Part shown: piece by piece, positions 57,002 through 64,000 of the stretch | Layout: each line of letters begins with the position of its first letter | Numbering within the stretch: position 1 is the first letter of the stretch | Origin: Sanghuangporus weigelae | Taxonomy: Eukaryota; Basidiomycota; Agaricomycetes; Hymenochaetales; Hymenochaetaceae | DNA: 64,000 nt | Direction: 5' to 3' | NCBI GenBank assembly: GCA_033182465.1 | Contig: CP137318.1 | Coordinates: 2,728,001 to 2,792,000 of the forward strand | Notes under the pieces: model-generated | Told to the model about the DNA's origin: nothing | Databases searched by the model: none | The model's input: only the letters and a program-made list of their open reading frames with translations | Made by a program: the position numbers and the translations under genes

Positions 57002-59658
57002 ATGTCTGGTTTGATTCCTAGAGGCGAGAAATCACTTTCGCTTCATAGGAGCCCAGTATAATTGAGTTGGTTTCCTCCAGATTTCCGTCCGACCCCGGCA
57101 AGCATTCCTCCGGAGCATTGTAACTTCAGGATGACTCTTCCGAAAGGCTCGAATTTGCCCGTTAGCATACATCCTCTAGTGAGTAGGCAAATTGAGCTGA
57201 TGTAGGGTGCGAGAACTCATCAGATTACTTTGCGGACGCGTAGAATCCCGTGCAGTTCGTTCTGCGCGGAGCTACCATCTATCCTCATAAGCTTGCTCTG
57301 GCTCACCCCGATGTAGAGAATCCGGTTGCTTTTACGTACTCTGTGTGGTAGGTGTATCTCTTGGACACGTACCTGCTTTACATAAAGCACATCGAAAATG
57401 CCCAGGGCCCAAAGAATACAAAATCTCGCTTATGCTTTGATTTGGTCCGGAATCAAACCGGGAGAGAGAGTGGCTATAGTAGCACCTAACATGTAAGCTT
57501 ATTTTTGGATCACTGAACCTTTCAAATAATATCACGTCACTTTCAGTCCAATGATGGCAGGTGAGCAGATTCACTCAATCTAAAGAACCCCTACAATGAC
57601 CGAGTCGCAGATGCGCTGCAGGGCGTGCTTGCCGCTCGCGCGATACTTGTACCGATAAACATCAGACTGACAAAGAACGAAGTCACTTATATAATTGAGC
57701 ATTCCGGAGCGAAGCTGATACTTGTCGATTATGAATTCGTTCATCTCGCGAGCGATGCGAAGGTCCCAGTCATTGTTTGTAAGGATACCGGAAGGTTTGG
57801 CTGTCCCTATGAAGAGTTCCTATCAAAGGGCCGCCAGCATAGTAACGAAAGGGGCTGGCCCGGTCTCGAGATGGAACTAGATGAGAATGCAGCAGCGCTA
57901 CTATGCTACACGTAAGCTACTTGCATATGCTGAGGTCAAGCCCGTTGAGCTTGTTTAATACTCTAGGTCTGGTACAACAGGAAGACCGAAAGGGGCTCTG
58001 CTCACGTTGAGAGGTGAGGCTTGAGTGGATACACGATCAACGTCTCTTGAGTTAAGAATTCATTGCAGGCTTATACCTGGGTGCGGTTGGAAATGCTTAT
58101 GAAGCAAGGTTGGCCTCAATGTAAATGACATCTTGCATTTGAACGAATTCTTCCTCGATAGAATGACGCCTGATTCGGTCTATCTGTGGTACATCTAATG
58201 GAGGGTCATCATGCATAGCGACGAATAGCTAAGTAGATATTCAGGGTTCTACCGATGTTTCACGTCGCTGGCTGGACTTTCCCATGGGTCATTACTTTCT
58301 CATTCGCATCCCAGGTCCGCCGCGTCTTGTGTTCGAGTTTCAGTTTTTGCTGAAATATATATCTTACTTCAGATCACTCAACGCGTTGTGTCAACTGCTC
58401 ATATCTGGAGGCATTTGCGACATTCCGGCGTTTCACATTATTGCGGAGCGCCAACTGTCTAGGTATTGGACTCTAATTACCGATTTTATACAGTCCCTGA
58501 TAGCTTACGCGCGCTTGATGGATCAGATCGGAATAGTAACTCATTCAGATGCGGTGAAGCTAGAGAAACCCGTAAATACAATAGCCGGAGGTTCTGCTCC
58601 GACTGCGCATCTTGTTGGCGAGCTCGAAAAGAAGAATATTCATATTGTTCACTTATACGGTTTAACGTGAGTCTCGTCTAACATCAATAAGAATCACTCT
58701 TATCTTATTTCTAGGGAGGTATGACACGCCATGCATTTCAACTTTCGAGCTCAGCAATGTGTACTAGACCTATGGGCCTCTCACTCGCAACTACGAGCAA
58801 CCGGCCTGGAAGGATCTATCTCTTGAGGAACGAGCGAAGTTCATGGCCCGGCAAGGTCATGCCTTCTCTACTGCTCAAGAGATTCGAGTCGTCTACCAAG
58901 ATGATAACGAGAAACTTACGGATGTACCTGCCGACGGTAAGACAGTCGGAGAGGTTGTAGCTCGAGGCAACACAGTTATGAAAGAGGTGTGACGAGTATA
59001 AACCATTTAATGCGTTTCTGTTGACTGGTCTATCCTTAGTACTTTCGCGATCCCGACGCCACAAAGAAGGCTTTCAGAGGTGGATATTTCGGTACTGGCG
59101 ACCTTGCTGTACTACACGAGGATGGCAGCATTTCAATCCAGGATAGAAGCAAGGACATCATCATATCAGGTGGCGAGGTAATGTATCTGTATCATATCCA
59201 GATAGAGCGAAGTACTATAGCTAACATGGGTAATAAAGAACGCTTCGAGTTTAGCAATTGAACAAGGTCAGTTGTTTATTGTGGATATGCGAGTTAAGTT
59301 TATTGAGACATGATATTCAGAACTGGCTGAGCATCCAGCCGTCCATGAGGTAGCGGTGGTGGCGAGGCCGCACCCTAAGTGGGGTGAACGTCCGATGGCG
59401 TTCGTTATACTCACACCGGCAGCGGAAAAGGAATATGCGGGGAGACACAAAGAGTTCGAAAAAGACCTAAAGGTGTTCGCGAAAACACGCCTTCCGGGAT
59501 TTGCGTGTCCGGAATGGGTGCAAGTTGTGGATGAACTTTCTGTAAGTCTACGTACAATGTGCTTTCGGCATAGCAATCCTTACTCTTGGCCTGGATAGAA
59601 AACTTCGACAGGCAAGATCATGAAAACGGCGCTTCGCGGCTTCGTTGCCAGATTATGA
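57002..59658 (+). CDS. AMP-dependent acyl-CoA synthetase-like ligase, tandem copy 1
   Basis: Adenylate-forming enzyme that activates a carboxylic acid with ATP and CoA. Blocks: '[16 protein letters not shown]', '[20 protein letters not shown]', the P-loop '[20 protein letters not shown]', '[18 protein letters not shown]', 'LYGLTETYGPLTRNYEQPAW', 'GYFGTGDLAVLHEDGSISIQ', '[20 protein letters not shown]' and '[19 protein letters not shown]', whose last three residues ARL fit a PTS1 peroxisome signal. Exons as small as 4 nt (58715-58718) and 14 nt (57547-57560). Two oddities: intron 1 (57024-57080) starts GC, and an exon end at 58460-58462 reads TAG where copy 2 has CAG. It may be decaying or rely on an alternative donor at 58457. 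Confidence 0.83.
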
Positions 59659-59935
59659 CGCTACTATATGATGTACTTGTACCCTTCGATGATTTGAAAC
59701 AAATATATCAGGCAAACTAGCGGAAGGTCTATAGCGGTGAAGACCTGGACTAGTATGGGAATTTCGGAATTTCATAGGCGTGTGATTGACGAATGATCAT
59801 GGGACGGGACGTTGTATATTACACAGCCACAACTCGACTCGATCATGGGGCGTCATATAAAAATATAATGGTCTCTGCCACGGGTCGCACTCTCTTTCTT
59901 GTCTTCTCGACGTCCACTTTTGTCACTTGCATAGC

Positions 59936-62623
59936 ATGTCCATCTTGACTCCTCATGGTGAGCAAGGCCTTCGTCTTTCTCATAGTGGCGTTTCTAAATT
60001 CCAATCTAGGATTCCGACCGACTCCTGCAAGTATACCTCCAGAGCATTGTTGCTTCAGAATGAAGCTTCCAGAGGGAACAAAGCTGCCCGTTAATTTCCA
60101 TCCTCTGGTAAGCAATTGAGTCGAAGATTGGAAGCTCCATTGATATGTAGTACTGGTTCCGCGCTTCCAGAACCCCTTGCAATTTGTTCTCAGAGGAGCC
60201 ACGATCTATCCTCATAAGCTTGCTTTGGCACATCCGGATGTAGAGAAGCCCGTTGCATATACCTACTCAGTATGGTATGCCAATGAACTGCTTCTTTGCG
60301 CGTACGTTTAAGCTGAATAAACCCAGGGTACAGCGAATCCAGAATCTCGCGTATGCTTTCATCTGGTCTGGAATCAAACCTGGTGATAGAGTTGCAATAA
60401 TATCGCCTAATACGTAAGATTCCTTTACTACTTGTATGACGTCATATGATATTGATTTTTGGTCCGTTTAGGCCAATGATGGCAGGTAATGGCAATTTTC
60501 AATTTGTTAGTGACTATAAATTGACCGGTTTCCAGAGGCATTGCAGGCAGTCTTAGCTGCTCGTGCAATTCTCACGCCGATTAATACCAGACTGACTAAG
60601 AGCGAGGTCAACTACATACTTGAGCATTCCGGAGCGAAGCTGATACTCGTTGATCACGAATACGTTCATTTCACCAAAGATGCCAAAGTTCCTGTCATAG
60701 TCAGCAAGGATACTGGAAGATTCGGGTGCCCTTATGAGGAATTCTTGACAAAGAGTAGACAGCACAGTATCGAGAAAGGCTGGCCCGGATTGCAGATGGA
60801 AGTTGATGAAGATGCGGGAGCGATGCTCTGTTATACGTGAGTCGGATTTAAAAGAATTTCTCAGCCTCGCGGCCCGTAGAGATTGACTGATATTGTATAG
60901 TTCGGGCACTACTGGAAGGCCGAAGGGAGTCCTCACAACTTTAAGAGGTAAAATGGTTACGATGCTACGAGTCCAAAATGCGATTTAATCTCTAATACGT
61001 GCAGGGACATATCTGGCCGCTGTGGCCAATGCATATGAAGCTAGGTAGATTCTAAAGGCCGGAACTTGCCTCTTTCTTTAATTTCTTCATCCGCAGAATG
61101 ACTCCTGAGTCTGTCTACTTGTGGTACGTAGAATCGCGCAAGGAAGCTAACATCATCAAGCAAATCCAACTACTTTTAATAGGGTTTTGCCCATGTTTCA
61201 TGCTGCTGGATGGACGTTTCCGTGGTCCATAACCTTCTCATTTGCTACCCAGGTCTAGTAGCATATTGATAATCTCTTCGCTGATCAAAGGTTCTGACGA
61301 ATGTACAGATTACTCAACGTTCCGTTTCGGATCCTCAGATTTGGTGGCACTTTTTGAACTCCGGAGTATCACATTATTGTGGTGCACCTACAGTCCAGGT
61401 ATTGTATTCGTGACCGTATATCTAGTTATCGGCTCGTTTTTACAACGAGTTTGGGTATTGGTGATTTAGCTCGGCATCGTAACACATCCGGACGCAAGGA
61501 TACTAGAGAGATCCGTGAATGCTATCATCGCTGGCTCCGCTCCCACAGCGCATCTAATCGGTGAACTCGAGAAAAAGAACATTCATGTTGTCCATGTCTA
61601 CGGTCTAACGTATGTTCAGTTTGTTCTGCGTGAAATTATGGACTAATACCAAACTAGGGAGGTATGGAGATTCATTTCGAGGCTGCAACAAACTCACGCG
61701 GAATATAGACGTATGGTCCTTTCACTCGAGGTTACGCTCAGCCTTTTTGGAAAGACATCTCTCTTGAGGCACGAGCAAAGTTTATGGCACGGCAAGGCCA
61801 TGCCTTTGCAACTGCACAGGATGTGCGAGTCGTCTATCAGGATGATAGTGATGAGCTTACAGATGTGCCCGCCGACGGCAAGACAGTCGGTGAAGTCGTG
61901 ACCAGGGGTAATATCGTTATGAAGGAGGTGAGCGAGTCTCACATACCCATGGACAATGAGCAGTTAGGTAAAATATTTCCTACACTCGACAGTATTTCCA
62001 AGATCCAGAGGCGACTAAGAAAGCTTTCCGCGGTGGCTATTTTGCATCTGGAGATCTTGCAGTTATGCATGAAGACGGGAGCATCGCTATCCAGGACCGG
62101 AGCAAGGACATCATCATTTCAGGAGGCGAAGTCCGTTGATTTCATGTCATTTACTTAGCCAAGTCCAACTGACCCGCGTGAATCAAGAACGCTTCAAGCC
62201 TGGCGATTGAACAAGGTCAGTTACATCATTCATGTGCATGCGTTTGTAAAAATAAACAAGTTATTGACCATGAACATCAGAATTAGCAGAGCATCCGGCT
62301 GTGCATGAGGTTGCAGTTGTGGCAAGACCTCACTCGAAATGGGGTGAGCGCCCAATGGCGTTCGTAATTCTTACTCCAGTGGCCGAAAGGGAGTATGCGG
62401 GACGGCATCATGATTTCGAAGTAGACCTGAAGAAGTTCGCGAAGACACGTCTTCCTGGATTTGCCTGCCCTGAGTGGGTGCGAATATTAGATGAACTACC
62501 GGTGCGGCCTTGATTTCCTTGACTGCGTTCAGTTTGAGTCGAGCCTTATCTTCTTTTATCCAGAAAACATCAACAGGCAAAATCATGAAGACAGCCTTGC
62601 GCGGAATTGTCGCCAAATTATGA
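59936..62623 (+). CDS. AMP-dependent acyl-CoA synthetase-like ligase, tandem copy 2
   Basis: Close paralogue of copy 1, 277 bp downstream, same exon plan. Start at 59936 '[15 protein letters not shown]'. Intact blocks: '[20 protein letters not shown]', '[16 protein letters not shown]', '[20 protein letters not shown]', '[20 protein letters not shown]', '[20 protein letters not shown]', '[17 protein letters not shown]' and '[19 protein letters not shown]'. The end AKL is a classic PTS1, so a peroxisomal enzyme is likely. It carries the same 4-nt (61658-61661) and 14-nt (60472-60485) exons as copy 1. All donors read as GT in my model. Catalytic Lys in the final GK motif is present. Probable role: peroxisomal activation of a fatty or aromatic acid; the substrate is not clear. 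Confidence 0.88.
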
Positions 62624-62782: not shown

Positions 62783-64000
62783 TCATGTAGAAATCGGACA
62801 AAGTTGAAGAATGCGGAATGAACCATTACTCCGTTCGCAAAAGTACACAGTATCGTCAACGCGTCCCAAATATAAAAGCTCCTCATGTTGACGTCCTTCA
62901 TTATCATCGGCATTACCGAGTGCGGAATCGTTCTTTGCTGAAGAAGATTTCCCGAAACTAAGACCTTGTTTCTTGCCAGTTGATGCCGCAGACAAAGATT
63001 TATCTGAGGAAACTGGACCAACGGCAAAGGCAGAGAGGGGCGAGCCAACTCGCCATACGAACGGACCACGTCTGCTAATCGCAGATGGATGTGGTTTGAA
63101 GTTCGGGAGAATAGGTCGCGAGAAATCGCCTGGTGATGTAAGGGCGTCCACAACGTCAGTGACTTCCAATCCGCCCTGTCTGACAGCAGCTAGGACAGTA
63201 GTCTTCCCAACATCGAACGGCTCTAGACGCTTGACATCCCCGAGCCTATTTCCATAGACCGAAAAATCTTCTTCCTCATCAATACTCCAATGCAGGCGAC
63301 CTCGTAAGACGGAACGACCACGAGCGTCGACAACACTGGTGCTATGACCTCCACGACTCGTGAAGAAGAGTGCGGGTGGACCATATCGTCGATCTTGGGT
63401 TAGCAATGACATGGGATCGAGTAATGGCTTAACTGGCTCGGCCGGCAGACTAAAACTCGTCAGCGGCGGAGGTGGAGGTCGAAATGGGTGTGTAGGATCG
63501 ACACTTTGAGACCTCAAGTCTTTCAAAAGGATATAATCTTGGTCTTCTTCCCGACGCACGGGCAAATCAGGAGGTAGGAGGCCATCCTTATACCATGTTT
63601 GCATGAGAGAGGCTTTCCATGGGCCTGACAAAGACTGTTAGAAGAGCAACACCAACACATTATTATATACTTACCCTGCACAACACCTTTCGGATCACGA
63701 TAGTACCATTTAGAGGGTGGAAGAGAAGGTGGTATAGGCAGGCCAGGAGGACTAAATTGAACATTTGCCAAATCGAGGTTGTTTACACCATCGGGCTCTG
63801 GCTCATACTGCGCTCGATATTCCAAAAACGATTGGTATGTCGGAGGTATGACGCATTCATCTGCGATGGTTGCAAGAGGAAATCGAGGAGCAAACGACAA
63901 TTGCTGAAACGTAGTATACGGTGCCGCTTGAGCGGTGGCTAGAGCGGCCAACTCCTCTGAATGTGAGGTATTCGCAGGAGCTTGTTGCGTCGACTCAGAG
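62783..64000 (-). CDS. GYF-domain protein (Smy2/Syh1-like), 5' end outside window
   Basis: The C-terminal part of this gene lies within the window. A GYF domain spans the exon junction: 'SKWYYRDPKGVVQGPWKASL' followed by 'MQTWYKDGLLPPDLPVRR' (W-Y-Y-x-D-P-x-G-x-x-Q-G-P-W). GYF domains bind proline-rich PPG peptides, and in fungi Smy2/Syh1-type proteins link mRNA decay or COPII/translation control. Upstream sequence is Pro-rich ('FSPPGLPIPPSLPPSKW'), and the C-terminus is disordered, ending 'SFRILQLCPIST'. The frame stays open to the right edge, so the start is outside. A GT-AG intron (about 63630-63675) separates the GYF halves. Confidence 0.8.

Follow-up and report, generated by a model that had tools for sequence, protein, structure and literature searches.

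The window analysed here is a stretch of 64,000 nucleotides (nt) of the basidiomycete Sanghuangporus weigelae (contig CP137318.1, positions 2,728,001 to 2,792,000 of the forward strand; positions below are counted within the window). It contains two genes in tandem, copy 1 and copy 2, which on domain and motif evidence are genes for AMP-forming acyl-CoA ligases of the ANL superfamily. Hand modelling gives 18 exons of equal length in the two copies (22, 98, 104, 87, 14, 301, 47, 40, 27, 70, 90, 140, 4, 219, 138, 28, 221 and 60 nt for exons 1-18 of either copy). The thirteenth exon consists of the four bases GGAG and is the subject of this analysis. The features that matter for it are listed below; all rows rest on the hand models, and those for exon 13 also on path enumeration and shuffles.

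57002..59658, plus strand: copy 1, AMP-forming acyl-CoA ligase gene, from start to stop codon, 18 exons
58527..58666, plus strand: copy 1 exon 12, ending with AC, the first two bases of the Thr codon of YGLT
58667..58714, plus strand: copy 1 intron 12, 48 nt, GTGAGT...CTAG
58715..58718, plus strand: copy 1 exon 13, GGAG, third base of the Thr codon followed by the Glu codon
58719..58767, plus strand: copy 1 intron 13, 49 nt, GTATGA...CTAG
58768..58986, plus strand: copy 1 exon 14, starting with TYGP
59936..62623, plus strand: copy 2, AMP-forming acyl-CoA ligase gene, 18 exons, open, 569 amino acids
61470..61609, plus strand: copy 2 exon 12
61610..61657, plus strand: copy 2 intron 12, 48 nt, GTATGT...CTAG
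61658..61661, plus strand: copy 2 exon 13, GGAG
61662..61708, plus strand: copy 2 intron 13, 47 nt, GTATGG...ATAG
61709..61927, plus strand: copy 2 exon 14, starting with TYGP

The preliminary description of the window had placed GGAG between AG and GT at 58715-58718 and 61658-61661, and the sequence bears this out; in both copies the wider context is CTAG before and GTATG after the four bases. The peptide YGLTETYGP is assembled from TAC-GGT-(T/C)TA-AC at the end of exon 12, G-GAG in exon 13 and AC(C/G)-TAT-GG in exon 14. The latter exon starts with ACC in copy 1 and with ACG in copy 2, and the insertion of GGAG yields AC-G, GAG and AC(C/G), that is, Thr-Glu-Thr; joining exons 12 and 14 directly leads to a frameshift, with stops at 58960 (copy 1) and 61901 (copy 2). 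At the level of sequence, GGAG has the marks of an ultra-short coding microexon (1-15 nt): canonical AG and GT bounds at a length of 4 nt, a frame with a conserved residue that depends on it, and conservation, here in two paralogues. On the strength of direct observations of sequence, frame, uniqueness of the splice path, conservation of the glutamate and divergence of the flanking introns, both copies in all likelihood carry GGAG as a constitutive coding microexon of 4 nt (probability about 0.94). A gene model that omits it would result in two broken genes or in two enzymes that lack an invariant glutamate.

Splice paths were enumerated for the unspliced form and for the removal of one or two introns, each no shorter than 30 nt, with GT or GC as donor and AG as acceptor; the span in which splice sites were permitted opens 30 nt upstream of the exon 12 end and closes 30 nt inside exon 14. 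This gives 199 paths for copy 1 (44 with one intron, 154 with two, and the unspliced form), 19 of them open in frame, and 236 for copy 2 (66, 169 and the unspliced form), with 50 open. YGLTETYGP arises from exactly one path in either set, and both paths use GGAG. The earlier statement that only GGAG can keep the frame has to be narrowed to this: other open in-frame paths exist, namely one-intron paths (two in copy 1, seven in copy 2) and further two-intron paths (16 and 42, which were counted only), and GGAG lies on the sole path to YGLTETYGP in each copy. The open one-intron paths lend some substance to an alternative in which a single intron, with another donor or a length of ~100 nt, is removed, leaving no 4-nt exon and a protein without the glutamate. 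The donor GTTCAG at 61614 in copy 2, which produces LTYTYGP, comes closest to the length of the motif, but in copy 1 no open path corresponds to it. Moreover, none of the nine open single-intron paths yields the glutamate, which is invariant in the homologues described below, and the plain junction of exons 12 and 14 not only shifts the frame but implies a merged intron of 101 nt (copy 1) or 99 nt (copy 2), well beyond the range of 50-71 nt seen in the 30 other introns. We consider removal as a single intron very improbable.

Whether such an element could come about by chance, as a random AG-GGAG-GT within one long intron of two decayed genes, was addressed with 20000 dinucleotide-preserving shuffles of each intronic stretch, in which AG-4nt-GT was counted with at least 40 nt on either side. 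The bare arrangement is not rare, since it occurred in 855 shuffles for copy 1, 834 for copy 2 and 38 for both; once an in-frame Glu codon is included, the counts fall to 16, 27 and 0, respectively. The real intronic stretches hold no further AG-n-GT element (1-15 nt) with margins of at least 40 nt in either copy. Chance would also have to account for the same site, bases, frame and residue in both copies, and an amino-acid identity of 82% against a third-position identity of 46% speaks against decay; this explanation is scarcely credible.

The assignment of the genes is based on domains and motif. In copy 2, AMP-binding (PF00501, 208.1 bits, cut-off 29.9) and AMP-binding_C (PF13193, 74.1 bits, cut-off 24.5) are both above the curated cut-offs. 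In copy 1, 57565-57912 matches AMP-binding (38.2 bits) and 59314-59598 matches AMP-binding_C (62.3 bits); 58768-58992, searched on its own, had no family match. With the inclusion of GGAG, both copies contain the ANL superfamily motif Y-G-x-[TS]-E in the form YGLTE. The best solved-structure match of copy 2 is the Thermus long-chain acyl-CoA synthetase 1ult (E-value 9.1e-62), and YGLTET is common to both copies and the 1ult chain. The top NCBIfam match, the acyl-CoA synthetase PRK08162, scores 519.6 bits; because this is below its cut-off of 677, we do not assign a subfamily and leave the substrate unnamed.

The exon appears to contribute a residue that is conserved among relatives. Homologues, bacterial and archaeal, were found with six peptide patterns, none of which covers the YGLTETYGP motif; of 153 candidate stretches 147 were confirmed, and the best 80 of these were aligned with copy 2. 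All 80 have E in the glutamate column and G at the glycine of YG, and the columns from the tyrosine to the second glycine are free of gaps. In the modelled transcripts, GGAG supplies the conserved motif glutamate of AMP-forming acyl-CoA ligases, a residue that we take to be involved in Mg-ATP binding. Viral contigs were also scanned for a stray relative from fungi, which gave two matches of 18 residues.

The preliminary description further held that the exon predates the duplication and has been kept since. The age is supported: besides the equal 18-exon layouts, the copies differ at 140 of 230 fourfold degenerate sites, and NG86 estimates between them are 0.11 for nonsynonymous (dN) and 4.2 for synonymous divergence (dS), i.e. 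synonymous change is saturated. Little amino-acid change has accumulated in the same time, the 82% identity given above referring to 568 codons, with the one stop codon position excluded. When the copies are compared intron by intron, introns 12 and 13 show no alignment beyond that of shuffled sequence (z -1.4 and 0.5, respectively); among the 17 intron pairs the highest z is 2.5 (intron 15), and intron 8 follows with 2.1, both slightly above shuffles. Amid this divergence, both copies have GGAG, and at the same distance of 48 nt from exon 12. Given the saturation at synonymous sites and the unalignable introns 12 and 13, the exon is most likely older than the duplication, itself an old event, and selection has most likely maintained it since. 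For the same two reasons, gene conversion and a recent duplication are rejected as the source of the shared exon. Retention is well supported as history and less certain for the present product of copy 1, because of an in-frame stop at 58460-58462 that is considered below.

The introns that adjoin GGAG (48, 49, 48 and 47 nt) are the shortest of all 34, the remaining 30 introns of both genes ranging from 50 to 71 nt with a median of 57. In a ranking by leave-one-out weight matrix, the donor directly after GGAG comes sixth of 34 in copy 1 and fourth in copy 2. On either side of GGAG would lie an ordinary GT-AG intron of very small size, most likely recognised as a unit (intron definition). Introns 12 and 13 would be removed one after the other, in either order, and after the first removal GGAG would form the end of an exon of normal size; such stepwise removal is proposed because a 4-nt exon is too small to be bound by splicing factors on both sides at once. 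This picture fits the view that very short introns together with intron definition make tiny exons tolerable. Splice sites prefer a G after AG and an AG before GT. Because the ends of GGAG match this preference and the exon contains the codon of an invariant residue, coding and splicing constraints may jointly hold it in place.

Two consecutive reactions in one stretch are also a property of fungal stwintrons, nested introns of which one splits a splice element (donor, branch or acceptor) of the other and which are removed in consecutive steps (PMC6616335). If the locus were such a nested twin intron, GGAG would be part of the outer intron and be removed by the second reaction. However, introns 12 and 13 each have a complete GT and AG of their own, an exon would remain between them, as none does in a stwintron, and removal of GGAG breaks the frame and loses the invariant residue, all of which makes a stwintron extremely unlikely. 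A different proposal accepts the exon but has its inclusion regulated, as an ancient on/off switch in both copies: skipping would put exons 12 and 14 out of frame with one another, the glutamate would be lost and the enzyme would be off. A switch-like microexon that is alternatively included and gives two protein isoforms is described for Xlr2 of Trichoderma virens (PMC11121469); that case is likewise a microexon of a filamentous fungus, with alternative inclusion and two isoforms as features of Xlr2. For the ligase pair, we judge such a switch improbable and favour constitutive inclusion.

The surroundings of the pair were explored in the genome (33.9 Mb, 13 contigs). The exact DNA pattern TAG-GGAG-GT, followed after 30-60 nt by AG-AC-N-TAY-GGN-CC, occurs genome-wide only at copies 1 and 2; the control gave 0. 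A search for the AMP-ligase family, in which 15 of 44 candidates were scored and which is thus not exhaustive, gave at least ten other AMP-ligase regions among the matches listed (two C2 matches counted as one); copies 1 and 2 themselves were not among these matches.

A number of points weigh against a constitutive microexon and have to be set beside the evidence above. We infer RNA splicing through GGAG, the order of intron removal and constitutive inclusion from sequence, and the first of these is counted here. The evidence for conservation comes from two paralogues of a single genome. In nine of the other AMP-ligase regions the glutamate and its neighbours lie in one open frame; therefore, the superfamily does not share the split as a rule, and among the genome regions viewed it is specific to this pair (in one of ten other regions, L037 on contig C9, the motif was not found). 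The weight matrix was built on ~30 hand-modelled introns of these same two genes, and the splice sites are not all strong: for copies 1 and 2, respectively, the intron 12 donors rank 16 and 23, its acceptors 2 and 25, and the intron 13 acceptors 28 and 17, of 34. Intron 13 of copy 1 is without a match to the branch-site consensus YTNAY, which is also missing from six of the other 33 introns. Finally, the product of copy 1 is in doubt owing to its in-frame stop.

This stop, TAG at 58460-58462, which the preliminary description had overlooked, is the last codon of the modelled exon 11, at a position where copy 2 has a sense codon. It raises the possibility, which is compatible with the microexon reading and to which we give somewhat less than even odds, that copy 1 is a recent pseudogene whose GGAG is a relic of past selection. 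The hand model of copy 1 has no second internal stop, and a general decay of this copy is not seen, since changes at conserved sites are not in excess. Of the 182 columns in which 80% or more of the homologues agree, 96 are matched by both copies, three are missed by copy 1 alone and five by copy 2 alone; relative to outgroup L058 the unique changes at 503 sites number 15 and 13, respectively. As copy 1 does not look relaxed, the stop could be of very recent origin, could be spliced out, or could be an assembly error. As to splicing, 20 of 91 one-intron paths around the stop are open, and one of them combines a donor at 58457, 6 nt upstream, with the modelled acceptor, which would leave out the stop and keep the frame. 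Two occurrences of the hexamer GTCTAG are recorded here as side observations: at 61253-61258 it is the modelled donor of intron 10 in copy 2, and at 58457-58462 it spans the copy 1 stop, where it could serve as an alternative donor.

Microexons of this size are already known, and this gene pair would be a further case. The earlier suggestion that 4 nt is close to the smallest known does not hold: 1-nt exons have been published for plants (PMC8831610, PMC4674806) and Fusarium (PMC12940212), and a 4-nt exon for rice (PMC8831610). A close parallel is Fusarium CYP621A, where a 1-nt exon lies inside a highly conserved motif; 20 orthologues were compared, and Sequence Read Archive (SRA) reads from two species support the exon (PMC12940212). 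The two cases share a fungal host, a tiny exon in a conserved motif, a phase that is broken upon omission and retention across related genes; unlike CYP621A, the present exon has 4 nt and is known from the sequence of two paralogues in one genome. In length it equals the 4-nt microexon of rice LOC_Os02g54020, a different gene in a plant, which was validated by reverse transcription PCR and is absent from an annotation that truncates the protein (PMC8831610). The 1-nt exon of Arabidopsis APC11 is also too small for exon definition; in this plant case the exon is reported to be constitutive on the basis of in vivo assays, and intron definition with stepwise removal was proposed (PMC4674806). P450 genes of Phanerochaete chrysosporium, with frequent introns of 45-55 bp and exons down to 6 bp (PMC1184071), resemble the ligase pair as intron-rich fungal genes with tiny exons and differ in gene family and in their 6 bp minimum. 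A search of part of the literature (4-nt exons; microexon with acyl-CoA synthetase and basidiomycete) found no prior report of this 4-nt exon. Gene annotation is reported to miss such tiny exons in plants (PMC8831610) and in Fusarium P450 genes (PMC12940212), and the interest of the locus is that it apparently presents a clear and old 4-nt coding exon, within the conserved motif of an enzyme, at just the length where annotation reportedly fails.

Exon 5 is a second microexon in each copy, equal between the copies in length (14 nt) and phase; its coordinates in the hand models are as follows.

57547..57560, plus strand: copy 1 exon 5, 14-nt microexon
60472..60485, plus strand: copy 2 exon 5, 14-nt microexon

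Intron 1 of copy 1 (57024-57080) was modelled as GC-AG, beginning AG/GCGAGA at the exon-intron border, and copy 2 has GT at this place. The gene pair is adjoined by a minus-strand reading frame (62783-63637) with a GYF domain that scores 39.3 bits against a cut-off of 25.7.

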